This document shows positions 2,271 through 45,987 of a stretch of 64,000 nucleotides of DNA, in pieces. Each line of letters starts with the position of its first letter. The first letter of the stretch is position 1. Under the pieces are notes generated by a model. It saw only the letters and a program-made list of their open reading frames with translations, ran no database searches and was not told where the DNA came from. This stretch comes from Modestobacter versicolor (GTDB taxonomy: Bacteria > Actinomycetota > Actinomycetes > Mycobacteriales > Geodermatophilaceae): assembly GCF_014195485.1 (NCBI RefSeq), contig NZ_JACIBU010000001.1, positions 1,984,001-2,048,000 on the forward strand. The letters are read 5' to 3'. Both the position numbers and the translations under genes were made by a program.

Positions 2271-2999
2271 ATGCCCACCGACCAGCGCGACCCCGCCGCC
2301 GGCGCCCCGGTGGGCCGGCGGGTCTTCCTGGGGCTGCTCGGCCTGGGCGCGCTGGGGACCGTCACCGGCACCGCTCTCCAGGACGGGCTGAGCGCCGCGC
2401 TGGCGCCGATCCAGACCCGCGACCCGACCGGGCTGGTCTCCCTGCTGCCGCTGGGCAACACCTTCCGGTACTACTCGGTGACCGGCGGCGTCGACGAGCA
2501 GGACGCGGGCGAGTACCGGCTCGCCGTCTCCGGCCTGGTGCAGCGGACCGGCCGGCACACGCTGGCCGACCTCGCCGCGATGCCGCAGACCGAGCTGGTG
2601 CGCGACTTCCAGTGCGTCACCGGCTGGCGGGTGCCCGACGTCCGGTGGTCCGGGGTGCGGCTCGCCGACCTGATCGACCTGGCCGGCCCGGACCCCGCCG
2701 CGACCGCCGTCCGGTTCAGCTCCTTCGACGGCACGTACACCGAGAGCCTGACCCTGGAGCAGGCCCGGCGGCCCGACGTGCTGGTGGCGCTGCGGATGCT
2801 CGACGGGCCGGTGACCCACGACCACGGCGGGCCGGTGCGGCTCTACGTCGCGCCGATGTACGGCTACAAGAGCCTGAAGTGGCTGTCCGGCATCGAGCTC
2901 ACCCGCGACGTCGAGCCCGGCTACTGGGAGGACCGGGGCTACTCGGTCGACGCCTGGGTCGGCTCGTCCAACGGCCGGGCCGATGACCCGACCAGCTGA
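2271..2999 (+). CDS. Tat-exported molybdopterin-dependent oxidoreductase (sulfite-oxidase fold)
   Basis: 242 residues. The N-terminus carries a twin-arginine signal (GRRVFLGLLGLGALG, Arg16-Arg17), so the protein is exported folded with its molybdenum cofactor. The core is the oxidoreductase molybdopterin-binding domain of the sulfite oxidase/MsrP group. DFQCVTGW (Cys115) supplies the conserved molybdenum thiolate, and YGYKSLKWLSGIEL is also family-typical. The next gene encodes a cytochrome b and overlaps it by 17 nt, so electrons probably pass between this extracytoplasmic subunit and the membrane quinone pool. The substrate (sulfite, methionine sulfoxide or other) cannot be read from sequence. 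The start follows a leaderless-type -10. Confidence 0.85.
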   Translation: MPTDQRDPAAGAPVGRRVFLGLLGLGALGTVTGTALQDGLSAALAPIQTRDPTGLVSLLPLGNTFRYYSVTGGVDEQDAGEYRLAVSGLVQRTGRHTLADLAAMPQTELVRDFQCVTGWRVPDVRWSGVRLADLIDLAGPDPAATAVRFSSFDGTYTESLTLEQARRPDVLVALRMLDGPVTHDHGGPVRLYVAPMYGYKSLKWLSGIELTRDVEPGYWEDRGYSVDAWVGSSNGRADDPTS

Positions 3000-3612
3000 C
3001 GCCCCGCCCGTCGAGCCGGAGCTGGCCCGGTTCGGCCGGCCGGCCCGGTGGGTGCACGGGCTGGTCGGTGTGCTGATGCTGGTCTGCATCGCGACCGCGG
3101 CAGTGCTCTACAACAGCTCGCTGCAGCTGCTGGTCGGGCACCGGCGGGCGGTCGAGCTGGTGCACGTCTGGGCCGGGTACGCGCTGCCGGTGCCGCTGCT
3201 GGCCGGGCTGCTCTCGGCCGGCTACCGCGCCGAGCTGCGCCGGCTGAACCGGTTCACCGGCCACGACTGGCGTTGGCTGCGCTCCCGCACCCGCCGCGAC
3301 GGGCGGATCCCGGTCGGCAAGTACAACGCCGGGCAGAAGCTCAACGCCTCGCTCAGCGGCGGGGCCATCGCCGTCCTGCTGCTGACCGGCGCCGTCATGC
3401 AGGCCACCGACCTGGCCCCGCTGGCCTGGCGCACCGGGGCGACGCTGATGCACGACTGGTTCTCCCTGGCCGTGGGCCTGCTCGTGCTCGGCCACCTGGC
3501 GTTCGCGCTCCGCGACCCGGTGGCGCTGCGCAGCCTGCGCACCGGCACGGTGCCCCGGCGGTGGGCCCGCTCCGAGCACCCGGCGTGGGCCGACGAGGTC
3601 GAGGACCGCTGA
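2983..3612 (+). CDS. Cytochrome b-type membrane subunit paired with the molybdoenzyme
   Basis: 209 residues with about four transmembrane helices, at roughly residues 27-45, 60-80, 120-140 and 155-178. Histidines suited to haem ligation sit in RWVHGL, VGHRRAVELVHVW, LMHDW and VLGHL. This is the layout of the cytochrome b561/formate-dehydrogenase gamma type. It should anchor the molybdoenzyme encoded immediately upstream and shuttle its electrons to or from quinone. The ATG lies inside the 3' end of the previous gene, so the two are translationally coupled. It ends in EDR-stop inside a perfect palindrome shared with the convergent neighbour. Confidence 0.8.
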   Translation: MTRPADAPPVEPELARFGRPARWVHGLVGVLMLVCIATAAVLYNSSLQLLVGHRRAVELVHVWAGYALPVPLLAGLLSAGYRAELRRLNRFTGHDWRWLRSRTRRDGRIPVGKYNAGQKLNASLSGGAIAVLLLTGAVMQATDLAPLAWRTGATLMHDWFSLAVGLLVLGHLAFALRDPVALRSLRTGTVPRRWARSEHPAWADEVEDR

Positions 3613-35382: not shown

Positions 35383-35988
35383 TCAGCCCACCTGGCCGAA
35401 CTCCCTGTCCAGCGCCAGGTTGAGCTCCAGCACGTTCACCCACGGCGCCCCGATGAAGCCAAGGTCCCGACCGTGCGTCGCCTCCGCCACCAGCGCCTCA
35501 ACGTCGCCGACCGGCACCCCGCGCTCCGCCGCCACCCGGGCGACCTGCAGCTCGGCGTAGGCAACCGAGATCCCCGGGTCGAGCCCGGACGCCGACGCCG
35601 TCACTGCGTCGGCCGGCACCTCGGAGGCATCAACGCCCTCGAGCGCAGCCACCGCAGCCCGACGGGAGGCCACGAGCTCCAGCAGCTCGGCCGAGTTGGG
35701 CCCCAAGTTCGACCCGCCCGACGCCGTCCCGTCGTAGTCCGACGCCGACGGCCGCGACTGGAAGTACTGCGGCAGCGGGTCACCGTCCGAAGCCACGAAC
35801 GCCTGGCCGATCAGCGAGGAGCCCACCACCTCGCCGTCCCGGACCAGCAGCGACCCCTCGGCCCGACCCGGCACCAGCTGCGCGAACAGCGTGATCACCA
35901 GCGGGTACACCACCCCCAGCACGATGGTGGCCACGAGCAGGAACCGGACGGCGGCCACCAGCTGGCGGCCCGAACGCAGAGCGGACAT
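35383..35988 (-). CDS. kdpC: Potassium-transporting ATPase subunit C
   Basis: 201 residues from the ATG at 35988; a GTG one codon earlier overlaps the kdpB stop. There is a single N-terminal membrane helix (about 14-38, FLLVATIVLGVVYPLVITLF). Conserved KdpC segments are GSSLIGQAF, YFQSRPSASDYDGTASGGSNLGP and SGLDPGISVAYAELQVARVA. KdpC stabilises the KdpFABC complex and promotes ATP binding. Last gene of kdpFABC; a strong hairpin follows. Confidence 0.93.
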   Translation of the reverse strand: MSALRSGRQLVAAVRFLLVATIVLGVVYPLVITLFAQLVPGRAEGSLLVRDGEVVGSSLIGQAFVASDGDPLPQYFQSRPSASDYDGTASGGSNLGPNSAELLELVASRRAAVAALEGVDASEVPADAVTASASGLDPGISVAYAELQVARVAAERGVPVGDVEALVAEATHGRDLGFIGAPWVNVLELNLALDREFGQVG

Positions 35989-38039
35989 CACGCGATCCCG
36001 GGGATGAGGGAGACGAGCAGGTCGATGAGCTTGATCCCGACGAAGGGCAGCAGCACGCCACCGAGGCCGTAGACAGCCAGGTTGCGGCGCAACATCGCCG
36101 ACGCCGAACCGGGCCGGTACCGCACGCCGCGCAGCGCCAGCGGCACCAGCGCCACGATGATCAGCGCGTTGAACACGACGGCCGAGAGGATCGCCGACTC
36201 CGGCGACGCCAGCCGCATCACGTTCAGCTTGTCGAGCCCGGGGAACGCAGAAGCGAACATCGCCGGCAGGATCGCGAAGTACTTCGCCAGGTCGTTGGCG
36301 ATGGAGAACGTGGTCAGCGACCCGCGGGTGATCAGCAGCTGCTTGCCTATCTCCACGATCTCGATCAGCTTCGTCGGGTCGGAGTCGAGGTCGACCATGT
36401 TGCCGGCCTCCTTCGCCGCCGACGTCCCGGTGTTCATCGCCACCCCGACGTCGGCCTGCGCCAGCGCCGGGGCGTCGTTCGTCCCGTCGCCGGTCATCGC
36501 GACCAGCCGGCCGCCGTCCTGCTCACGGACGATCAGCGCCAGCTTGTCCTCCGGCGTCGCCTCGGCCAGGACGTCGTCGATGCCGGCCTCCGCGGCGATC
36601 GCCCGCGCCGTCCGCTCGTTGTCGCCGGTGATCATCACCGTGCGGATCCCCATCCGGCGCAGCTCGGCGAACCGCTCGGCCATCCCCTCCTTGACCACGT
36701 CCTTGAGGTGGATGACGCCCAGCACCCGGGCGCCGGCCGCGTCGGCGCAGGCGAGCAGCAGCGGCGTCCCGCCCGAGGCGGAGATGCCGTCCACCACCTC
36801 GGCGACGTCCCGCGGCACCGCACCGTCCAGCGAGCGCACCCACGCTTGGACCGACCCCGCGGCGCCCTTGCGCAGCTGCCGACCGTCGGGCAGGTCGACC
36901 CCGCTCATCCGGGTCTGCGCGGTGAACGGCACGAACACGGCGTCGACCGTGGCCCGCTCCCCCAGCCCGTACGCGCTGCGAGCCAGCGCCACGACGCTGC
37001 GTCCCTCGGGCGTCTCGTCGGCCAGCGACGCCAGCTGTGCCGCATCGGCGACCTCGCTGTCGGAGCAGCCCCCCACACCGACGAACGCTGCCGCCTGCCG
37101 GTTGCCGAGGGTGATCGTGCCGGTCTTGTCCAGCAGCAGCGTGTTCACGTCGCCGGCCGCCTCGACCGCGCGGCCGCTCATCGCCAGCACGTTCCGCTGC
37201 ACCAGCCGGTCCATCCCGGCGATGCCGATCGCCGACAGCAGCGCGCCGATCGTCGTCGGGATCAGGCAGACCACGAGCGCGATCAGCACCGTGGTCGACT
37301 GCTCGGCGCCGGAGTAGACCGCCAGCGGCTGCAGCGTCACCACCGCGAGCAGGAAGACGATCGTCAGCGAGCTGAGCAGGATGTTCAGCGCGATCTCGTT
37401 CGGCGTCCGCTGCCGCGAGGCACCTTCGACCAGGGCGATCATCCGGTCGACGAACGTCTCCCCCGGCCTGCTGGTGATCTCCACGACGATCCGGTCGCTG
37501 AGCACCGTCGTCCCGCCGGTCACCGCCGAGCGGTCGCCGCCGGACTCCCGGATCACCGGCGCCGACTCCCCGGTGATGGCCGACTCGTCGACGCTGGCGA
37601 TGCCCTCGACGACGTCGCCGTCGCCCGGCACGACCTGCCCGGCCTCGACGACGACGCGCATCCCGGGCTGCAGCGAGGCGGCGGAGACCTCCGAGCCGTC
37701 CTCCAGGACGGCGACCGTCGTCGTCCTGGCCTGGCGGAGGGTGGCCGCCTGCGCCTTGCCGCGGCCTTCGGCGACGGCCTCGGCGACGTTGGCGAACAGC
37801 ACGGTGAGCCACAGCCACGCGGTGATCAGCCAGCCGAACACTGACGGGTCGAGCACGGCCAGCACGGTGGAGAACACCGAGCCGACCCAGACCACGAAGA
37901 CGACGGGCTGGCGGACCAGGCCGCGGGGGTCGAGCTTGCGCACCGCGCCGACCAGGGCGGGGCCCCAGTCGATGGTGGCACGCCGGTCGGGGCGGGGTGC
38001 ATCCGGCGGGGCGGGACGACGATCGAGCGCCGCGGTCAT
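35988..38039 (-). CDS. kdpB: Potassium-transporting P-type ATPase subunit B
   Basis: 683 residues, normal length. Phosphorylation motif [12 protein letters not shown] with Asp304, TGES in the actuator loop (around 156), [20 protein letters not shown] and [22 protein letters not shown] for the P domain. Membrane helices flank these. It hydrolyses ATP to power K+ uptake through KdpA. It overlaps kdpA by 4 nt and kdpC by 1 nt. Confidence 0.96.
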
Positions 38040-39697
38040 GACAGTCCTTCTGCGAGGGGTCCGAGCGAGAGCACGGGGAAGTAGGTGAGCCCGACGACCA
38101 CCAGGACGACGGCGGTCAGCAGCCCGACGAACAGCGGGCGGTGGGTGGGCAGCGTGCCGGCGGTGACCGGGGTGCGGCCCTGGGCGGCGAGCCGGCCGGC
38201 CAGCGCGAGCACCAGCACGATCGGCAGGAACCGGCCGAGCGCCATCGCGAGCCCCAGCGCCACGTTGTAGAACGGCGTGTTCGCGCTCAGCCCGGCGAAC
38301 GCCGAGCCGTTGTTGTTGCCGGCGGAGGTGAAGGCGTAGAGCACCTCGCTCAGCCCGTGCGGGCCGTCGTTGAGCATCGAGCTGCGCCCGGCGTCGACGC
38401 TCATCGCGACCGCCGTGCCCACGAGCACGATCGCCGGGGTGGCCAGCACGTACAGCGAGGCCAGCGTCATCTCCGGGCGGCCCAGCTTCTTGCCCAGGTA
38501 CTCCGGGGTGCGCCCGACCATCAGGCCGGCGACGAAGACCGCGATGACGGCCAGCACGAGCACCCCGTAGAGCCCCGAGCCGACGCCGCCGGGCGCGACC
38601 TCGCCCAGCATCATGTTCGCCATCACCACCAGCCCGCCGGTGGGCGTGAAGCTGTCGTGCTGGGCGTTGATCGCGCCGGTCGAGGTGAGCGTGGTCGCCG
38701 TCCCGAACAGCGCCGACAGCGGGCCGCCGAACCGGACCTCCTGGCCCTCGGTCGCCGCACCGGCGAGCTGCAGCGCCGCTCCCCCGGCCCGGGCCTGCGC
38801 CCAGCTGGTCAGCGCCAGCGAGGCGGTGGCCAGCGTGGCCATCACGCCGAGGACCGCGTACCCCTGCCTCGTGTCGCCGACCAGCCGGCCGAACGTGCGC
38901 GGCAGCGAGAACGGGATGACCAGCAGCAGGAACACCTGGAACAGCGAGGTCCAGGCGCTCGGGCCCTCGAAGGGGTGCGCGGAGTTGGCGTTGAAGAAGC
39001 CGCCGCCGTTGGTGCCGAGCTCCTTGATCGCCTCCTGCGAGGCCACCGGCCCGCCGGGCAGGAACTGCGTCGCGCCGGACAGCGTGGTCGCCTCGGCGCC
39101 CGCGCTCAGGTTCTGCACCACCCCGCCGAGCACCAGGACGACGGCGGCGACGGTGGCCAGCGGCAGCAGCACCCGGGTCACCGCCCGGGTGACGTCGACC
39201 CAGGCGTTGCCCAGCCGGTCGGTGCGGGTGCGGGCGAACCCGCGCACCACCGCGACCGCCACCGCCAGGCCGACCGCCGCGGAGAGGAAGTTCTGCACCG
39301 CCAGCCCGGCCATCTGCACGAGGTGGCCCATCGTCGACTCACCCGCGTAGCCCTGCCAGTTCGTGTTGGTCACGAAGCTGACCGCGGTGTTCCAGGCGCT
39401 GCCCTCCTCGACCGCGGCCATGCCGTTGCCCAGCGGCAGCCACTGCTGCACCCGCTGGAGCAGGTAGAGGAACAGCACCGACACCAGCGAGAACGCCAGC
39501 ACGCTGCGCAGGTAGGTGGGCCAGCGCTGCTCGGTGCCGGGATCCACTCCCACGGCCCGGTAGACCAGCCTCTCCACCCGCCAGTGCCGCTCGGCGCTGA
39601 ACACCCGGGCCATCCAGTCGCCCAGCGGGCGGTGCACGGCGGCGAGCGCTCCCACCAGCAGCGCCACCTGCAGCCAGCCGGCCACGGCGCTGCTCAT
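38036..39697 (-). CDS. kdpA: Potassium-transporting ATPase subunit A
   Basis: 553 residues, about ten membrane helices, with the four selectivity-filter-like loops of Kdp[53 protein letters not shown] and [21 protein letters not shown]. It forms the K+ entry pore of the Kdp complex. ATGA overlap with kdpF upstream and a 4-nt overlap with kdpB downstream. Confidence 0.96.
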
Positions 39698-39786
39698 CAG
39701 AACCGCTCCGGGAACAGCAGCGACGCCAGCAGGTAGAGCACCAGGCCGCCGGCCACCAGCAGCCCGACCCAGGACTCGGCGTTCAC
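39697..39786 (-). CDS. kdpF: Potassium-transporting ATPase small subunit F
   Basis: 29 residues from a [23 protein letters not shown] then SLLFPERF, a single helix ending in the FPERF tail typical of KdpF. It stabilises the Kdp complex. The start overlaps the stop of an even smaller ORF (GTGA), and its stop overlaps kdpA. Confidence 0.88.
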
Positions 39787-39866
39787 AGCCGCTCCACCCC
39801 GCGCACCACGAGGGCCAGCAGTCCGAAGACCGCCAGCGTGAGGAGCAGGTAGACCACGTCGGTCAC
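39783..39866 (-). CDS. 27-aa membrane peptide upstream of kdpF
   Basis: A GTG at 39866 opens [19 protein letters not shown] then VRGVERL, a one-helix peptide whose TGA overlaps the kdpF GTG. Tight coupling, a clean transmembrane helix and a basic tail argue that it is translated. It may be an extra Kdp subunit or a leader peptide. From memory, similar short ORFs precede kdpF in other actinobacteria, but I cannot confirm that here. A similar-looking peptide (TDSLIIALWG) lies upstream of kdpD at 42555. Confidence 0.6.
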
Positions 39867-39927
39867 GTCTCGAGCACCTTCGTCCGATCCCGGCGGACGA
39901 CCTGTCGTCGTCCACGTCCGAGCGGCG

Positions 39928-39933
39928 ACGCTA
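39928..39933 (-). promoter_or_regulatory. Candidate -10 (TAGCGT) of the kdp operon
   Basis: The minus strand reads TAGCGT about 62 nt upstream of the first small ORF. The two KdpE-box candidates lie just upstream (39962-40010), at activator-like distance from the inferred start site near 39921. Confidence 0.45.
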
Positions 39934-39961
39934 GGAGCGCGTCGAGGTGCTGAGCCGGGTC

Positions 39962-40010
39962 TTGACGAGTTCCTGACGCCCGCTGCGGCTCCCTTGACGC
40001 GCTCCTGACG
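39962..40010 (+). promoter_or_regulatory. Two candidate KdpE boxes upstream of kdpFABC
   Basis: TTGACGAGTTCCTGACG (39962-39978) and TTGACGCGCTCCTGACG (39994-40010) are copies of one motif, 32 bp apart, about three helical turns. Inside each, TTGACG and CTGACG are half-sites 11 bp apart, the usual spacing for OmpR/PhoB-type regulators. The same motif recurs at 42498 and 42746 near kdpD. Confidence 0.6.
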
Positions 40011-40161
40011 GCGGGATCTCCGGGTCGGCTCAGGGCGTTCCCCGATGGTCGGCGCGGCCGTGCGCCGACAGGGTCGTGTCAGCGGGATGTCAGAGGGACC
40101 GATCAGTCTGGGCCGCGGCGCGGGTCAGGAGGAACGTGGGGACGACGAGGAGGCAGTGGTG

Positions 40162-40782
40162 GTGAGCTCGGTCCTGGACGCCGTCGGCAGCTGGCCGGCC
40201 GGGCTGGTGCTCGCCGTGGCCGCCGTCGTGCTGGCCCTGGAGAGCGGCGTCGTGTTCGGCGTGTTGCTGCCCGGCTCGACGCTGCTGGTCGCCCTCGGGG
40301 TGTGGTCCGCGGCGTCTGAGACCCCCGCCGTCCTCCCGATCGCCGTGGCCGCGACGGCCAGCGTGCTGGGCGCCCTCGCCGGGTGGGCCCGCGGGCACGG
40401 CCGGCGCGCGGCCACCGGCAGCCACGGCCGGCTGCGCGCCCGGGTCGACCCGGCGGTGCGGCGGGCCCGCAGCTGGCTGGCCACCCAGGGCCCGGTCGGC
40501 TCAGCAGCCGTGCTCGCCGTCGCGCACTGGGCCGCGGTCACCCGCACGCTGGTGCCCCGGGTCGCCGGCGGCGCCGGGGTGCCGTTCGCGCTGGCCGCCC
40601 CGGTGATCGCGGTCAGCGGCACCGCGTGGGCCACCACCGTCGTGCTGCTCGCCCGGGCGCTGGGCGAGCAGGTGGCCGACGACGCGAGCTGGGCACCGGC
40701 CGTCGTCCTCGGGGTGGTCGGGGTGGCGCTCGTCGTCCGCCAGTGGCGCGCCCACCACTCCGACACCGCGCACGCCGGCTGA
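40162..40782 (+). CDS. DedA-like (VTT-fold) membrane protein, copy 1
   Basis: 206 residues from one of three successive GTGs behind AGGAGG (40148-40153); 40162 has the best spacing, with 40159 next. The pattern is that of DedA proteins: LESGVVFGVLLPGSTLLVALG near the start, an amphipathic middle with GHGRRAATGSHGRLR, then VAHWAAVTRTLVPRVAGGAGVPF and the terminal helix. DedA proteins are membrane transporters, several of which flip phospholipid or undecaprenyl phosphate. Close paralogue of the next gene. It lies between the kdp operon and its regulators, so KdpE control is possible. Confidence 0.75.
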   Translation: MSSVLDAVGSWPAGLVLAVAAVVLALESGVVFGVLLPGSTLLVALGVWSAASETPAVLPIAVAATASVLGALAGWARGHGRRAATGSHGRLRARVDPAVRRARSWLATQGPVGSAAVLAVAHWAAVTRTLVPRVAGGAGVPFALAAPVIAVSGTAWATTVVLLARALGEQVADDASWAPAVVLGVVGVALVVRQWRAHHSDTAHAG

Positions 40783-40961
40783 GCGCCGGTCAGCCCCGGG
40801 GATGACCGCACGTCAACCGTCGGGGGCAGCCGCGGCGACGCGATGACCACCCCCTGCGGCGACGCGGGAGGAGATCCCGGGACGAGAGCGTCGTCACGTC
40901 CCGATCACCCGCATCCGGAGGTCGCCGTGCCCACCCCCGTCGCGACCCACCGGACCCGGTG

Positions 40962-41708
40962 ATGGTGGGTCTCCTGCTCGAGCGGGTCGGCGCCTGGCCG
41001 GCCGTGCTGGTGCTCACCGTGACCGCCGTCGTCCTGACGCTGGAGAGCGGCGTGGTGCTCGGCGTGGTCCTGCCCGGGTCGACGACCCTCGTCGCGCTCG
41101 GGCTGTGGTCGTCGGCCACCGGCACCGACCCAGTGCTGCCCATCGCGGCCGCCGCCGCCGGCAGCGTCACCGGTGCACTGCTGGGACTGCGGCAAGGGCA
41201 CACCCGTCGAACGGCCCACGGCCCCGGTCACCCGTGGGTGCGTTCGCGCGTCGACCCGGTGGTCCAGCGGGTCCACGGCTGGCTGTCCAGGCAGGGCGCG
41301 GCCGGCACCGTCACGCTGCTCGCCGCTGCGCACTGGGTCGCGGTCGTCCGCACGCTGACCCCGCGGGTCGCCGGTGGAGCGGGCATCCCGCTGCGGCTGG
41401 CCGGGCCGGTGATCGCGGTCAGCGGCACCGCGTGGGCCGCCACCGTCGTGCTGCTCGCCCGCGCAGTGGGGCAGCGGGTCGCCGACGACGCGAGCTGGGC
41501 ACCGGCCGTCGTCCTCGGCGGGGTGGCCGTCGTGCTGCTGGTGCGCGCAGCGCGACGGCACCACCGGCCGGGGCGGGACGTCAGGACGTGGGTGGTGGGG
41601 TCATCTGGGCGACCCGGATCGAGTTGCCGAACGGGTCGCGGAAGCCGAAGTCGATGCCGTAGGGCTGCACGACCGGCTCCTCGGGCAGGTCGATGCCCTT
41701 CTCCTTGA
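40962..41708 (+). CDS. DedA-like (VTT-fold) membrane protein, copy 2, with antisense tail
   Basis: 248 residues from the ATG at 40962 (a GTG precedes it). Residues 1-205 match copy 1 throughout: LESGVVLGVVLPGSTTLVALG, VRTLTPRVAGGAGIPLRL, GPVIAVSGTAWAATVVLLAR, DDASWAPAVVLGG. After RRHHRPGRDVRTW the frame has no stop until 41708, running 128 nt antisense into the convergent VOC gene and adding about 40 Arg/Ser/Pro-rich residues. The original stop was probably lost, and the tail is unlikely to be functional. Confidence 0.7.
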   Translation: MVGLLLERVGAWPAVLVLTVTAVVLTLESGVVLGVVLPGSTTLVALGLWSSATGTDPVLPIAAAAAGSVTGALLGLRQGHTRRTAHGPGHPWVRSRVDPVVQRVHGWLSRQGAAGTVTLLAAAHWVAVVRTLTPRVAGGAGIPLRLAGPVIAVSGTAWAATVVLLARAVGQRVADDASWAPAVVLGGVAVVLLVRAARRHHRPGRDVRTWVVGSSGRPGSSCRTGRGSRSRCRRAARPAPRAGRCPSP

Positions 41709-42003
41709 GGGCCGCGTGGGTCTTGTGCGCGTCGTCGGTGGTGAAGAAGAGGTTCCCTCCCCCGGCGCCCTTGGTGACCAGGTCGCGCACCGTGTCGGCG
41801 ATCTCCGCGCTCACCGAGGGCGGCGCCGGCCGCTCGAGCAGCACCGCGTGCCCGGGGTCGGTGGGCAGCGCGACGGTGAGGAAGCGCATCGGCCCGAACT
41901 GCTGGTCGGTCTGGACCGCGAAGCCGAGCTTGCCGACGTAGAAGTCGAGTGCCTCGTCCTGGTCCAGCACGTAGAGGGAGGTGATCGAGATGGTGTTCAA
42001 CAT
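41581..42003 (-). CDS. VOC-family (glyoxalase/bleomycin-resistance fold) protein
   Basis: 140 residues. Two beta-alpha-beta-beta-beta modules: ITSLYVLDQDEALDFYVGKLGF in the first, NLFFTTDDAHKTHAALKEKG and YGIDFGFRDPFGNSIRV in the second. Such proteins bind a metal in dioxygenases, lyases or antibiotic-binding proteins; the role here is unknown. The AraC-type gene lies 10 nt upstream on the same strand, so the two form a small operon. The DedA copy 2 frame overlaps its 3' end. Confidence 0.82.
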   Translation of the reverse strand: MLNTISITSLYVLDQDEALDFYVGKLGFAVQTDQQFGPMRFLTVALPTDPGHAVLLERPAPPSVSAEIADTVRDLVTKGAGGGNLFFTTDDAHKTHAALKEKGIDLPEEPVVQPYGIDFGFRDPFGNSIRVAQMTPPPTS

Positions 42004-42013
42004 GCCCGGAACG

Positions 42014-42448
42014 CTAGGGCCGGGCCGGTGCCCCGGGCTTCTCCGGAACTGCGGTGTTCGAGCCGGGACGCAGCCAGCGCATGCCGAAGCAGCTGGGCAC
42101 CGGCGCGAGCGGGCCGCGCCGCCGGTGGACGCTCGGCGGCTCCCCCACGATCTCGGCGAACACCCGGCTGAACGTGCCCAGGCTGTTGAAGCCGACCGCC
42201 ATGCAGATGTCGGTGACCGTCTGGTCGGTGCTGCGCAGCAGGAACATCGCCCGCTCCACCCGGCGGCGCTGCAGGTACCGCTTGGGCGTCTCGCCGAACG
42301 TCGCCTTGAAGGTGCGGATGAAGTGCGCCTCGGAGACGTGCGCGATCCGGGCCAGCGCGGGGACGTCGAGCGGCTCGGCGTAGGAGCGGTCCATCGCGTC
42401 CCGGGCCCGCAGCATCCGCCGGTTGGAGTCCTCGCTCGCCCGGCTCAC
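42014..42448 (-). CDS. AraC-family regulator (DNA-binding domain only)
   Basis: 144 residues. Two helix-turn-helix units: LDVPALARIAHVSEAHFIRTFKATFGETPKRYL and VTDICMAVGFNSLGTFSRVFAEIVGEPPS, given in pieces. There is no ligand-binding domain, so it is a short AraC-type protein, usually co-transcribed with a small binding protein, here the VOC gene 10 nt downstream. A KdpE-box-like sequence lies 50 bp upstream of its start. Confidence 0.85.
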   Translation of the reverse strand: MSRASEDSNRRMLRARDAMDRSYAEPLDVPALARIAHVSEAHFIRTFKATFGETPKRYLQRRRVERAMFLLRSTDQTVTDICMAVGFNSLGTFSRVFAEIVGEPPSVHRRRGPLAPVPSCFGMRWLRPGSNTAVPEKPGAPARP

Positions 42449-42497
42449 GGCGCGATCATGGCAGCCGGCGGAAACCCGTCAAGGACGCCGGGGCGCG

Positions 42498-42515
42498 CGT
42501 CAGGACGGTGTCAAG
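42498..42515 (-). promoter_or_regulatory. Candidate KdpE box (third copy)
   Basis: The minus strand reads CTTGACACCGTCCTGACG, matching all 14 conserved positions of the motif. It lies between the AraC gene (start 42448) and a small membrane-peptide ORF (start 42555), so it may act on either. Confidence 0.55.
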
Positions 42516-42554
42516 ACGCTGGTCCGCCGGCTCGGCGCGGCGTCCGATGGAGGC

Positions 42555-42680
42555 GTGACCGACTCGTTGATCATCGCGCTCTGGGGTCTGCTGGCCATCG
42601 GCGTCAACACCGCGGTGGGCCGGTGGTGCCGTCGTCCCCGCGAGCAGCGGTCAGCACCGCCCGGAGACCTCCAGCGGTGA
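42555..42680 (+). CDS. 41-aa membrane peptide upstream of kdpD
   Basis: A GTG at 42555 opens TDSLIIALWGLLAIGVNTAV followed by GRWCRRPREQRS, a single helix with a basic tail, between two KdpE-box candidates. GGAGG lies very close to the GTG, so the start is not certain. It resembles in layout the 27-aa peptide in front of kdpF. Not a known family. Confidence 0.4.
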   Translation: MTDSLIIALWGLLAIGVNTAVGRWCRRPREQRSAPPGDLQR

Positions 42681-42745
42681 CCTCGTGCTCTGCTCCCCCA
42701 CCGGGAGCAGAGCACAAGCGTCCGGGAACACCTCGTCGGAGTGGT

Positions 42746-42763
42746 CTTGACGCGATCCTGACG
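42746..42763 (+). promoter_or_regulatory. Candidate KdpE box (fourth copy) upstream of kdpD
   Basis: CTTGACGCGATCCTGACG, 36 bp before the kdpD start. It differs from the copy at 39993 by one base. Suggests autoregulation of kdpDE. Confidence 0.6.
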
Positions 42764-42799
42764 CGGCACGGCGGCCGACCGGCCCCGGGCGGGACGATC

Positions 42800-45316
42800 A
42801 TGGAGGTCATGGCCCGCGGCACGTTGCGCATCTACCTGGGCGCCGCACCCGGCGTCGGGAAGACCTTCGCCGTCCTCGGCGAGGCGCACCGCAGGCAGGA
42901 GCGCGGCCAGGACGTCGTCGTCGGGGTCGTCGAGACCCACGGCCGCCCCCGCACGCTCGAGCAGCTCGACGGCCTCGAGGTGCTGCCCCGCGCGGAGGTC
43001 GCCCACCGCGGCGTCACGCTCACCGAGCTGGACGTCGACAGGGTGCTGGCCCGCCGGCCCGAGGTCGTCGTCATCGACGAGCTGGCGCACAGCAACGCCC
43101 CCGGTTCCCGCAACGCCAAGCGGTGGCAGGACGTGGAGCAGCTGCTGGCCGCCGGGATCAGCGTGCTCACCACGGTGAACGTGCAGCACCTGGCGAGCCT
43201 CACCGACGTCGTCGAGCAGATCACCGGCGTCGCCCAGCAGGAGACGGTGCCCGACGAGGTGGTGCGCCGCGCCGACCAGGTCGAGCTGGTGGACATGTCG
43301 CCCGAGGCGCTCCGGCGGCGGATGGCGCACGGCAACGTCTACCCCGCCGAGCGCGTCGACGCCGCGATGGGCAACTACTTCCGGGTCGGCAACCTGACCG
43401 CGCTGCGCGAGCTCGCCCTGCTCTGGCTCGCCGACCGGGTCGACGAGGGGCTGCGCCGCTACCGCTCCGACCACGACATCGACCACGTGTGGGAGACCCG
43501 GGAGCGGGTCGTCGTCGCGCTCACCGGCGGACCGGAGGGCGAGACGCTCATCCGCCGCGCCGCCCGGGTGGCCCGGCGCAACGGCGAGGGCGTGCTGCTG
43601 GCGGTGCACGTGCTCCGCTCCGACGGCCTGGCCGGGGTCTCCCCCGACGCCCTGCGGGCGCAGCGGGCGCTGGTCGAGGGCCTCGGCGGCAGCTACCACC
43701 AGGTCGTCGGCGACGACGTCGCGACCGCGCTGCTGAGCTTCGCCCGCGGTGCCGACGCCACCCAGCTGGTCATCGGCACCAGCCGGCGCACCCGGTGGGC
43801 CCGGGCGGTGCGCGGAGGCGTCGGCGGCGAGGTCGTCGCACGGTCCGGCGAGATCGACGTCCACATCGTCACCCACGCCGCCGCGGGCACCCGCGGCTGG
43901 CGGCTGCCCGTGCTCACCACCGCCGTCACCTGGCGCCGCCGGTGGGCCGCCCTCGCGCTCGCCCTGCTCGGCGTCCCGCTGGTCACCCTGCTCTGCCTGG
44001 CCGCCGACCCGGTGATCTCGCTGGCCAGCGTGCTGCTGGTCTTCCTGCTGCTGGTGGTGGCGGTGGCCCTGGTGGGCGGGCTGGGTCCGGCGATCGTGGC
44101 GGCGGTGGTCGGGGGTCTGGCGGAGAACTGGTTCTTCACCGCGCCCACCGGACGGCTCACCATCAACCGCGTCGACGACGTCGTGGCCCTGCTGGGCTAC
44201 CTGGTGGTGGGCGTCGCCGTCGCCACCGTGGTGGACCGCTCGGCCCGCCGGGCCACGGCCGCCGCCCGGTCGGCCGCCGAGACCGAGATGCTCGCCTCGC
44301 TGTCCCGCGCCGTCCTCGCCGGTGAACGCGCGCTGCCGAGCATGCTGGAGCAGATCCGGGAGGCGTTCGGCCTCGACGAGGTGACGATGGTCGAGCGCAC
44401 CGCCGACGGCGAGCAGACGGTGAGCACCTGCGGGCACGGCGGCGGCGGGCACAGCGAGGACGTGCCGATCACCGAGACCATCGCGCTGCGGCTGTGCGGC
44501 CGGACGCTGGACGCCGGCGACCGCCGCGTGCTGGTGGCGTTCGCCGAGCAGGCCGCCGTCGCCCTCACCCAGGGCCGGCTCACCGCGCAGGCCGCCGAGG
44601 CCGACCGGCTGGCGGCCGGCAACAGCATGCGCACCGCCCTGCTGGCCGCGGTCAGCCACGACCTGCGCACCCCGCTCGCCGGGATCAAGGCCGCCTCCTC
44701 GGCGCTGCGCTCCCCCGAGCTGGCGCTCACCGACGAGGACCGCGACGAGCTGGTCGCCACCGTGGACGAGTCCGCCGACCGGCTCACCGGGCTGGTCGAC
44801 AACCTGCTGGACATGAGCCGGCTGCAGTCCGGTGCGGTCGCCCCGGCGCTGAGCCCCACCGACCTGATCGGCGTGCTGCACACCGCCCTGACCTGGCTGG
44901 AGGCACCGCAGCGGGCGCGGGTGGTGCTCGACGCCCCCGACGACGTGCCCGCGGTGCTCGCCGACGCCGGGCTGCTGGAGCGGGTGGTGGCCAACCTCGC
45001 TGCGAACGCCACCCAGCACGCCCCGACCGGCCCGGTGGTGCTGCGGGCCGGTGCTGCGGCCGGGCAGGTCGAGCTGCGGGTCGTCGACCGCGGCCCCGGG
45101 GTGCCGACGGCCGACCGCGAGCGGGTCTTCGCCCCGTTCCAGCGGCTCGGCGACGCCCCGGCCGGTCAGGGCGTCGGGCTCGGCCTGGCGGTGGCCCGCG
45201 GGCTCACCGAGGCGATGGGCGGCACGCTCACCGCGGAGGACACCCCCGGCGGCGGGCTGACCATGGTCGTCGCGCTGGCCGAGGCGCCGCGGCCCGCCCC
45301 GGTGGCCCAGGCGTGA
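42800..45316 (+). CDS. kdpD: Osmosensitive K+ channel sensor histidine kinase
   Basis: 838 residues from the ATG at 42800 (GGGA 7 nt upstream); ATG 42809 is the alternative. KdpD N-terminal domain: RGTLRIYLGAAPGVGKTFAVL with the Walker A motif, DELAHSNAPGSRNAKRW and NVQHLASL. A USP-like region follows, then about four helices (DUF4118, about 385-480), a GAF-like linker, the His box AAVSHDLRTPLAGIKAAS (His620) and the ATPase domain (NLAANATQHAP, DRGPGV, GVGLGLAVARGL). It senses K+ limitation and phosphorylates KdpE. It overlaps kdpE by 4 nt. Confidence 0.94.
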   Translation: MEVMARGTLRIYLGAAPGVGKTFAVLGEAHRRQERGQDVVVGVVETHGRPRTLEQLDGLEVLPRAEVAHRGVTLTELDVDRVLARRPEVVVIDELAHSNAPGSRNAKRWQDVEQLLAAGISVLTTVNVQHLASLTDVVEQITGVAQQETVPDEVVRRADQVELVDMSPEALRRRMAHGNVYPAERVDAAMGNYFRVGNLTALRELALLWLADRVDEGLRRYRSDHDIDHVWETRERVVVALTGGPEGETLIRRAARVARRNGEGVLLAVHVLRSDGLAGVSPDALRAQRALVEGLGGSYHQVVGDDVATALLSFARGADATQLVIGTSRRTRWARAVRGGVGGEVVARSGEIDVHIVTHAAAGTRGWRLPVLTTAVTWRRRWAALALALLGVPLVTLLCLAADPVISLASVLLVFLLLVVAVALVGGLGPAIVAAVVGGLAENWFFTAPTGRLTINRVDDVVALLGYLVVGVAVATVVDRSARRATAAARSAAETEMLASLSRAVLAGERALPSMLEQIREAFGLDEVTMVERTADGEQTVSTCGHGGGGHSEDVPITETIALRLCGRTLDAGDRRVLVAFAEQAAVALTQGRLTAQAAEADRLAAGNSMRTALLAAVSHDLRTPLAGIKAASSALRSPELALTDEDRDELVATVDESADRLTGLVDNLLDMSRLQSGAVAPALSPTDLIGVLHTALTWLEAPQRARVVLDAPDDVPAVLADAGLLERVVANLAANATQHAPTGPVVLRAGAAAGQVELRVVDRGPGVPTADRERVFAPFQRLGDAPAGQGVGLGLAVARGLTEAMGGTLTAEDTPGGGLTMVVALAEAPRPAPVAQA

Positions 45317-45987
45317 GCCGGGTACTCGTCGTCGACGACGACGTCCAGCTGCTGCGGGCCCTGCGGATCAGCCTGCGCGCCGCCGGGCACGAGGTGGTCA
45401 CCGCACCGGACGGGACGACGGCGCTGCGCGAGGCGGCGGCCGCGCACCCGGACGTGATCGTGCTGGACCTGGGCCTGCCCGACCTCGACGGCACCGAGGT
45501 GCTGGCCGGGCTGCGGCCCTGGTTCACCGGCCCGGTGCTGGTGCTCTCCGCGCGCGCCGACAGCCAGGACAAGGTGGCCGCGCTGGACGCCGGCGCCGAC
45601 GACTACGTGACCAAGCCCTTCGACATGGCCGAGCTGCTCGCCCGGCTGCGGGCGGCGGTGCGTCGCGGCGGCACCGCCCCCGGCGAGTCCGTCGTCGTCA
45701 CCGACTCCTTCACCGTCGACCTCGCCGCCAAGCAGGTGACCGTGGACGGCGTCCCGGTGCGGCTGACCCCCACCGAGTGGGCGCTGCTGTCGGAGCTGGT
45801 GCGGGCGCCCGGCCGGCTGGTCGGCCAGCGGCAGCTGCTGCAGTCGGTGTGGGGGCCGGCCTACGAGCGGGAGACCAACTACCTGCGGGTGTACCTGGCT
45901 CAGCTGCGCCGCAAGCTCGAGCCGGACCCTGCGCACCCGCGGCACCTGCACACCGAACCGGGCATGGGCTACCGCTTCACCCCGTGA
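45313..45987 (+). CDS. kdpE: Response regulator of the kdp operon (OmpR type)
   Basis: 224 residues from a GTG overlapping the kdpD stop (GTGA). Receiver: SRVLVVDDDVQLLRALRISL, phospho-acceptor Asp52 (VIVLDLGLPD), and DDYVTKPFDMAELLARL. Winged helix: VRLTPTEWALLSELVRAPGRL, TNYLRVYLAQLRRKLEPD, TEPGMGYRF. It should activate kdpFABC by binding direct-repeat sites, for which the four CTTGACnnnnTCCTGACG copies in this region are candidates. Confidence 0.94.
   Translation: MSRVLVVDDDVQLLRALRISLRAAGHEVVTAPDGTTALREAAAAHPDVIVLDLGLPDLDGTEVLAGLRPWFTGPVLVLSARADSQDKVAALDAGADDYVTKPFDMAELLARLRAAVRRGGTAPGESVVVTDSFTVDLAAKQVTVDGVPVRLTPTEWALLSELVRAPGRLVGQRQLLQSVWGPAYERETNYLRVYLAQLRRKLEPDPAHPRHLHTEPGMGYRFTP

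Follow-up and report, generated by a model that had tools for sequence, protein, structure and literature searches.

The operators through which KdpE acts on the kdp potassium-uptake genes have been described in only a few bacteria. In Escherichia coli, KdpE binds 6-bp direct repeats (TTTATA and TTTACA) separated by a 5-bp spacer, by means of the residues R193, R200 and T215 (Narayanan et al., 2012; PMC3264566), and in Mycobacterium smegmatis, where KdpE activates kdpFABC, the minimum KdpE site is CCGTAAAGAAACCATCAAGGCC (Ali et al., 2017; PMC5401905). By 2017, KdpE sites at kdp were known in four species, among which the mycobacterial site was described as unlike the rest (PMC5401905); a later review states that, up to 2023, no Streptomyces model had had its KdpDE analysed (PMC10117811). 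A search of the open-access literature yielded no description of KdpE sites in Streptomyces, nor of any at kimA or trkH. The present analysis concerns a window of 64,000 nucleotides from Modestobacter versicolor (contig NZ_JACIBU010000001.1, positions 1,984,001 to 2,048,000), in which an 18-bp motif, CTTGACnnnnTCCTGACG, recurs around the kdp genes and is very probably the KdpE operator of this organism.

The assignment to KdpE, already made in a first-pass annotation of the window and now considerably better supported, was adopted because the motif matches the footprinted M. smegmatis site and shares the geometry of the E. coli operator, because the DNA-contact residues of KdpE are conserved, and because the sites stay with kdpDE when the transporter differs. 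A position weight matrix (PWM) built from 69 sites, taken from the family of Modestobacter only, gave the consensus CGTCA[AG]G[AG]nnnCGTCAAG[AG] on the kdpFABC strand, an 11-bp direct repeat; CCGTAAAGAAACCATCAAGGCC, read in the same orientation, agrees with it at 14 of 16 positions (equalled by 4 of 200,000 shuffles). The repeat and its orientation relative to kdpF are thus common to M. smegmatis and Modestobacter; a single site has been described in the former, however, whereas the latter has a pair 32 bp apart, a TAnnnT -10 element at 26-27 bp, and sites at kdpD and at small-protein genes. With the E. coli operator the motif shares the arrangement of 6-bp repeats around a 5-bp spacer. Likewise, the KdpE encoded in the window (45313..45987, plus strand), an OmpR/PhoB-family response regulator with Response_reg and Trans_reg_C domains, aligns along its length with the E. 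coli protein (4kny; E=3.2e-62) and keeps R193, R200 and T215, the contact residues being common to both proteins. The E. coli operator differs in its AT-rich half-sites, its single known site and its opposite orientation relative to kdpF. The half-sites of Modestobacter (TTGACG/CTGACG), M. smegmatis (TTGATG/TTTACG) and E. coli (TTTATA/TTTACA) form a plausible series, which we infer to reflect homology, and the mycobacterial KdpE site would in this way be brought into line with the E. coli geometry.

As a separate observation, the kdp promoter of E. coli MG1655 (L261) holds TTGATG-GTTTA-TTTACA, in the same 6-5-6 layout, some 89 bp ahead of the KdpE site already known there. Of 19 positions, this stretch shares 15 with the M. 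smegmatis site and the known E. coli site shares 12; it is a possible second KdpE site.

Motif copies in the window and the genome

Four exact copies of the motif are present, at the positions originally reported. Two of them, read on the kdpFABC (minus) strand, are the candidate operators of kdpFABC: the promoter-proximal O1, CGTCAGGAACTCGTCAAGA (39960..39978, with CTTGACnnnnTCCTGACG at 39961-39978 on the plus strand), has a PWM score of 32.1 and is an exact motif kept in relatives, and the distal O2, CGTCAGGAGCGCGTCAAGG (39992..40010, with CTTGACnnnnTCCTGACG at 39993-40010 on the plus strand), scores 28.0 and lies 32 bp from O1, a spacing that had been correctly noted and is conserved. The third copy, CGTCAGGACGGTGTCAAGA (42498..42516, plus strand, with CTTGACnnnnTCCTGACG at 42498-42515 on the minus strand), is the candidate operator of the gene for SmlP, a small membrane protein, and has the same layout in relatives; a half-degenerate partner site, CTTGACGGGTTTCCGCCG (42466..42483, minus strand), stands 32 bp from it, and full 32-bp pairs are found in its place in the relatives L108, L109, L110 and L119. 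The fourth, the candidate operator of kdpDE (42745..42763, minus strand and thus reversed relative to kdpD, with CTTGACnnnnTCCTGACG at 42746-42763 on the plus strand), scores 29.8 and keeps a near-constant position in relatives.

The restriction of the motif to kdp promoters, previously claimed, held throughout the genome (4.59 Mb), which contains exactly four exact matches, every one at kdp; an order-1 Markov simulation gave an expectation of 0.017 exact matches per 64 kb. When up to two mismatches were allowed, 49 matches were obtained genome-wide versus 55 for a reversed-pattern control, so the background is not in excess. The refined consensus returned three exact matches and copy 3 with one mismatch, the single further one-mismatch match in the genome being CGTCAGGACCCCGTCGAGG at 1,048,398. 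The site is confined to the kdp region in this genome, and in genus g9 it also has small-protein targets unlinked to kdp. As for the half-sites TTGACG and CTGACG that had been described 11 bp apart, the spacing stands, but the first half-site of copy 3 is TTGACA rather than TTGACG. The reading direction, on which no decision had been taken, is now settled as CGTCARGRnnnCGTCAAGR on the kdpFABC strand, the same direction as in the M. smegmatis footprint and in the class.

Conservation and sites where kdpFABC is gone

Conservation at kdp promoters, which had been named beforehand as a check, is strong in related genera and across the class. The family sample comprised 115 genomes, 36 of which (window included) carried kdpA above the Pfam cut-off and had their kdpA regions annotated. 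Upstream of the kdpF region, 33 of these 36 have a site pair 32-33 bp apart (L106 is counted among them, its partner site having been detected by the weight matrix only); the exceptions are L110, with sites further off, L114, whose kdp is divergent, and L108, where this region has a single weak site. Ahead of kdpD, a PWM scan located a site 35-38 bp from the start in 29 of the 34 loci with divergent kdpD and one at 26-52 bp in L113, L118, L124 and L125, while in L098 no kdpD-proximal site exceeded the PWM threshold. The kdpD-proximal site is present also in genera where kdpD and kdpF stand far apart, and the deletion scars L127 and L130 hold intact or decaying sites beside scraps of kdpC.

For the class, 79 kdp loci from 21 other families were scanned with the PWM within 500 bp of kdpA at a threshold of 10.1, the 99% level of a shuffled control that takes loci as independent, many of them being related. 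A site above threshold was found in 53 of the 79 loci and in 16 of the 21 families, the orientation matching that of the window in 53 loci versus 8 loci with a reverse site (Wilcoxon p=4e-12), and 33 of the 40 spaced site pairs were exactly 32 bp apart. A phylogenetic artefact is disfavoured because the families agree and the spacing has a single peak. In a wider set of 399 genomes, 35 of 40 strict site pairs fell at kdp loci or at a kdp deletion scar. Pair matches at L255 and L256, which lie at no kdp gene, and at G184 and G256, which lie in low-complexity repeats, were treated as chance. A slightly degenerate form of the M. smegmatis site matched no mycobacterium in a scan of named genomes.

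A close kdpE is retained in nine genomes that have no kdpA over the cut-off, the deletion scar G051 being set apart; seven of the nine, all but G039 and G083, are more than 95% complete. In L128, L321 and L325, three of the nine, kdpDE is preceded by a gene for a KimA homologue with sites upstream; the L128 protein matches KimA (6s3k) with E=3e-100, and its gene starts 39 bp after a pair of sites spaced by 32 bp. In L320, L322, L323 and L324, a site just past kdpE lies ahead of trkH, which was identified by PF02386 (E below 1e-49 in the three scanned) and, in L322, where an APC permease gene intervenes between site and trkH, by 83% identity to the L323 protein. Chance matches expected at the threshold used amount to 0.047 per 10 kb. 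The rest of the nine, L326 and L327, were assigned to neither group, and the L326 site, which points away from the neighbouring permease gene, was left out of the count. In these genomes the regulator has kept its site next to another transporter. At L323, a kdpC scrap remains beside kdpD (2970-3062, minus strand), with trkH now after kdpDE, as a trace of the loss of kdpFABC.

Promoter layout, probable autoregulation and competing explanations

The -10 element of the kdpFABC promoter, TAGCGT (39928..39933, minus strand), lies 26 bp after O1 in a conserved block, TCCTAGCGTCG, that is almost invariant in an alignment of 34 relatives, an alignment in which no conserved -35 was found. Within the offsets 18 to 35 downstream of the nearer site, TAnnnT was confined to 26 and 27 (15 occurrences in 55 class loci). 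Each 18-19 bp site, consisting of two 6-bp half-sites and a 5-bp spacer, would bind one head-to-tail KdpE dimer, and two sites 32 bp (three helical turns) apart would place two dimers on one face of the DNA. Activator-dependent recruitment of polymerase is proposed as the simplest reading because only 26 bp separate the end of the nearer site from the -10, which places that end about where the -35 usually lies, and no -35 is present; under K+ scarcity, phosphorylated KdpE probably takes over from the -35 in recruiting RNA polymerase. In PhoB-type activation the pho box takes the place of the -35, a mechanistic likeness, drawn from general knowledge, in that a direct-repeat operator stands just upstream of a -10 without a -35; the difference is that another regulator is involved. 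For KdpE itself, binding in Modestobacter, dependence on phosphorylation and the sign of regulation are what we infer from these comparisons.

Through the single, reversed site ahead of kdpD, KdpE probably regulates kdpDE itself, presumably by activation. Autoregulation had been suggested at the outset and gains support in Modestobacter's family from the near-constant distance of the kdpD-proximal site. Copy 4 stands 37 bp from the first start codon of kdpD (42800..45316, plus strand, with start ATG 42800 or 42809; PF02702 at E=2.7e-95, HisKA and HATPase_c) and about 31 bp from a putative -10, GATCAT (42796..42801, plus strand). This hexamer belongs to the GATCATGG block at the kdpD start, which together with the KdpE site makes up the conserved features upstream of kdpD in the family alignment. 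If GATCAT is indeed the -10 of kdpDE, a leaderless kdpD would start at ATG 42809.

Several observations weigh against this picture. The M. smegmatis kdpF promoter was read as SigF-type (PMC5401905), which differs from the TAnnnT element seen here; SigF-type elements (GTTC/GTTT-n13-17-GGG(C/T)A) were not found in the family, whose conserved element is TAGCGT without a conserved -35. In the class, 26 of the 79 loci fall below threshold, among them f32, f44 and most of f46, so that the site varies in sequence or position. Activation of kdpDE is uncertain because the kdpD site faces the opposite way to its gene, and the M. smegmatis kdpD promoter fusion was weak and kdpE-independent (PMC5401905); given that fusion, autoregulation may be limited to Modestobacter's family. 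The reversed site is compatible with activation and repression alike, and a variant in which it represses kdpDE, KdpE limiting its own amount, deserves consideration as the less probable outcome. The reversal and the independence from KdpE in M. smegmatis speak for such repression, whereas the distance of about 31 bp to the putative -10 comes close to the 26 bp proposed for activation at kdpF and the site leaves the -10 uncovered.

A different owner of the sites is improbable. OmpR/PhoB-type regulators such as PhoP, MtrA and those of the GlnR type bind 11-bp direct repeats, and one of them might own the sites and happen to control kdp; the shared repeat geometry would allow this, as would the homology of several solved actinobacterial response regulators to the window KdpE. 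Nevertheless, the exact copies in this genome occur at kdp only, the strict pairs of the 399 genomes concentrate at kdp loci or the deletion scar (35 of 40, as above), the sites stay with kdpDE when the transporter differs, and they match a footprinted KdpE site, all of which argues for KdpE. Binding by the neighbouring AraC-type protein (42014-42448) would account for the one site just upstream of the araC gene, and AraC-type proteins bind sites of about such length, but the gene accompanies kdp in genus g1 and L112 only, and genera and families that lack it still have the sites, which leaves this idea with almost no credit. It is just as implausible that CTTGAC is a sigma -35 element and the copies are promoters rather than operators: TTGAC does resemble the housekeeping -35, yet its strand at kdpFABC faces away from the operon, the conserved -10 is found on the opposite strand, 26 bp beyond the site and without an intervening -35, and both repeats are conserved, not just one.

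Judged from sequence, then, the motif is a real KdpE operator, and its regulon is wider than previously known; a single site definition, together with a single spacing and promoter layout, would predict that regulon over much of the class.

Small proteins and neighbouring genes

Copy 3 is part of the predicted promoter of SmlP, a 41-aa membrane protein ORF (42555..42680, plus strand) with the family core LWGLLAI...GRWCR. Its putative -10, TCCGAT (42543..42548, plus strand), lies 26 bp after the operator, with 6 bp separating it from the start codon; relatives mostly have their start codon 38-39 bp after the site, and the transcript is probably leaderless because a -10-like hexamer ends six bases upstream of that codon. 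The same layout as at kdpFABC, ending in a leaderless start codon, would drive the small-protein genes. SmlP is encoded at kdp loci in six genomes, window included (the five others with E=1e-15 to 1e-23 in a profile search), and away from kdp in two genomes of genus g9, both copies having a perfect site at the same spacing. A Cys-rich small protein is encoded behind this promoter layout in three further g9 genomes, and in L096 its gene is linked to kdp. SmlQ (core LxxxAxFxxxxWLxxxVDxxYR), a second membrane protein of small size, is found near SmlP or in its place behind KdpE sites in L099, L109, L119, L279 and L283. Matches to the leaderless-layout pattern in family f8 (G304:C10:242707, G334 and G394), which from its order membership and site sequence appears to be the Mycobacteriaceae, are mutually alike and may lie in coding sequence. 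After SmlP, a strong inverted repeat, GTGCTCTGCTC...GAGCAGAGCAC (42680-42720, plus strand), which is also present in L095, resembles a terminator or a palindromic element.

Ahead of kdpF lies LdrP (a working name), a conserved 27-aa membrane ORF (39783..39866, minus strand) found in about 70 of the 79 class kdp loci and 18 of the 21 families, mostly at about -169 from kdpA; the scan cut-off was the 95% value of a reverse-strand null (15), whose maximum of 85 came from one contaminating locus. The corresponding region of M. smegmatis was called a 120-nt 5' untranslated region (UTR) (PMC5401905), whereas in relatives a 27-aa ORF occupies that place. A tblastn search with LdrP against plasmids gave no match, and LdrP, SmlP and the Cys-rich protein matched no Pfam or NCBIfam family. 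The kdp 5' UTR in the window also contains a leader RNA hairpin, GGACGAC-n5-GTCGTCC (39895..39913, minus strand), with compensatory and G-U changes across 34 leaders. Small K+-linked proteins overlooked by annotation are in this way pointed out. The broader proposal, held with slightly more confidence than doubt, is that actinobacterial KdpDE is a general regulator of K+ limitation, behind whose operator kdpFABC, kimA and trkH are exchanged and whose regulon includes at least four unnamed small-protein families (LdrP, SmlP, SmlQ and the Cys-rich proteins of 70-95 aa), some of which might serve K+ uptake systems as additional subunits or regulators.

The operon itself is encoded on the minus strand and consists of kdpF (39697..39786, 29 aa; PF09604, E=7.5e-8), kdpA (38036..39697; PF03814, E=2.6e-227), kdpB (35988..38039; PF00122/PF00702) and kdpC (35383..35991; PF02669, E=1.4e-66). 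Between kdpF and the glyoxalase and AraC genes stand two tandem genes for weakly DedA-like membrane proteins (40159-40782 and 40959-41579, plus strand); their best NCBIfam match is far below cut-off, and homologues remain at kdp in the genus and in the scar L127.

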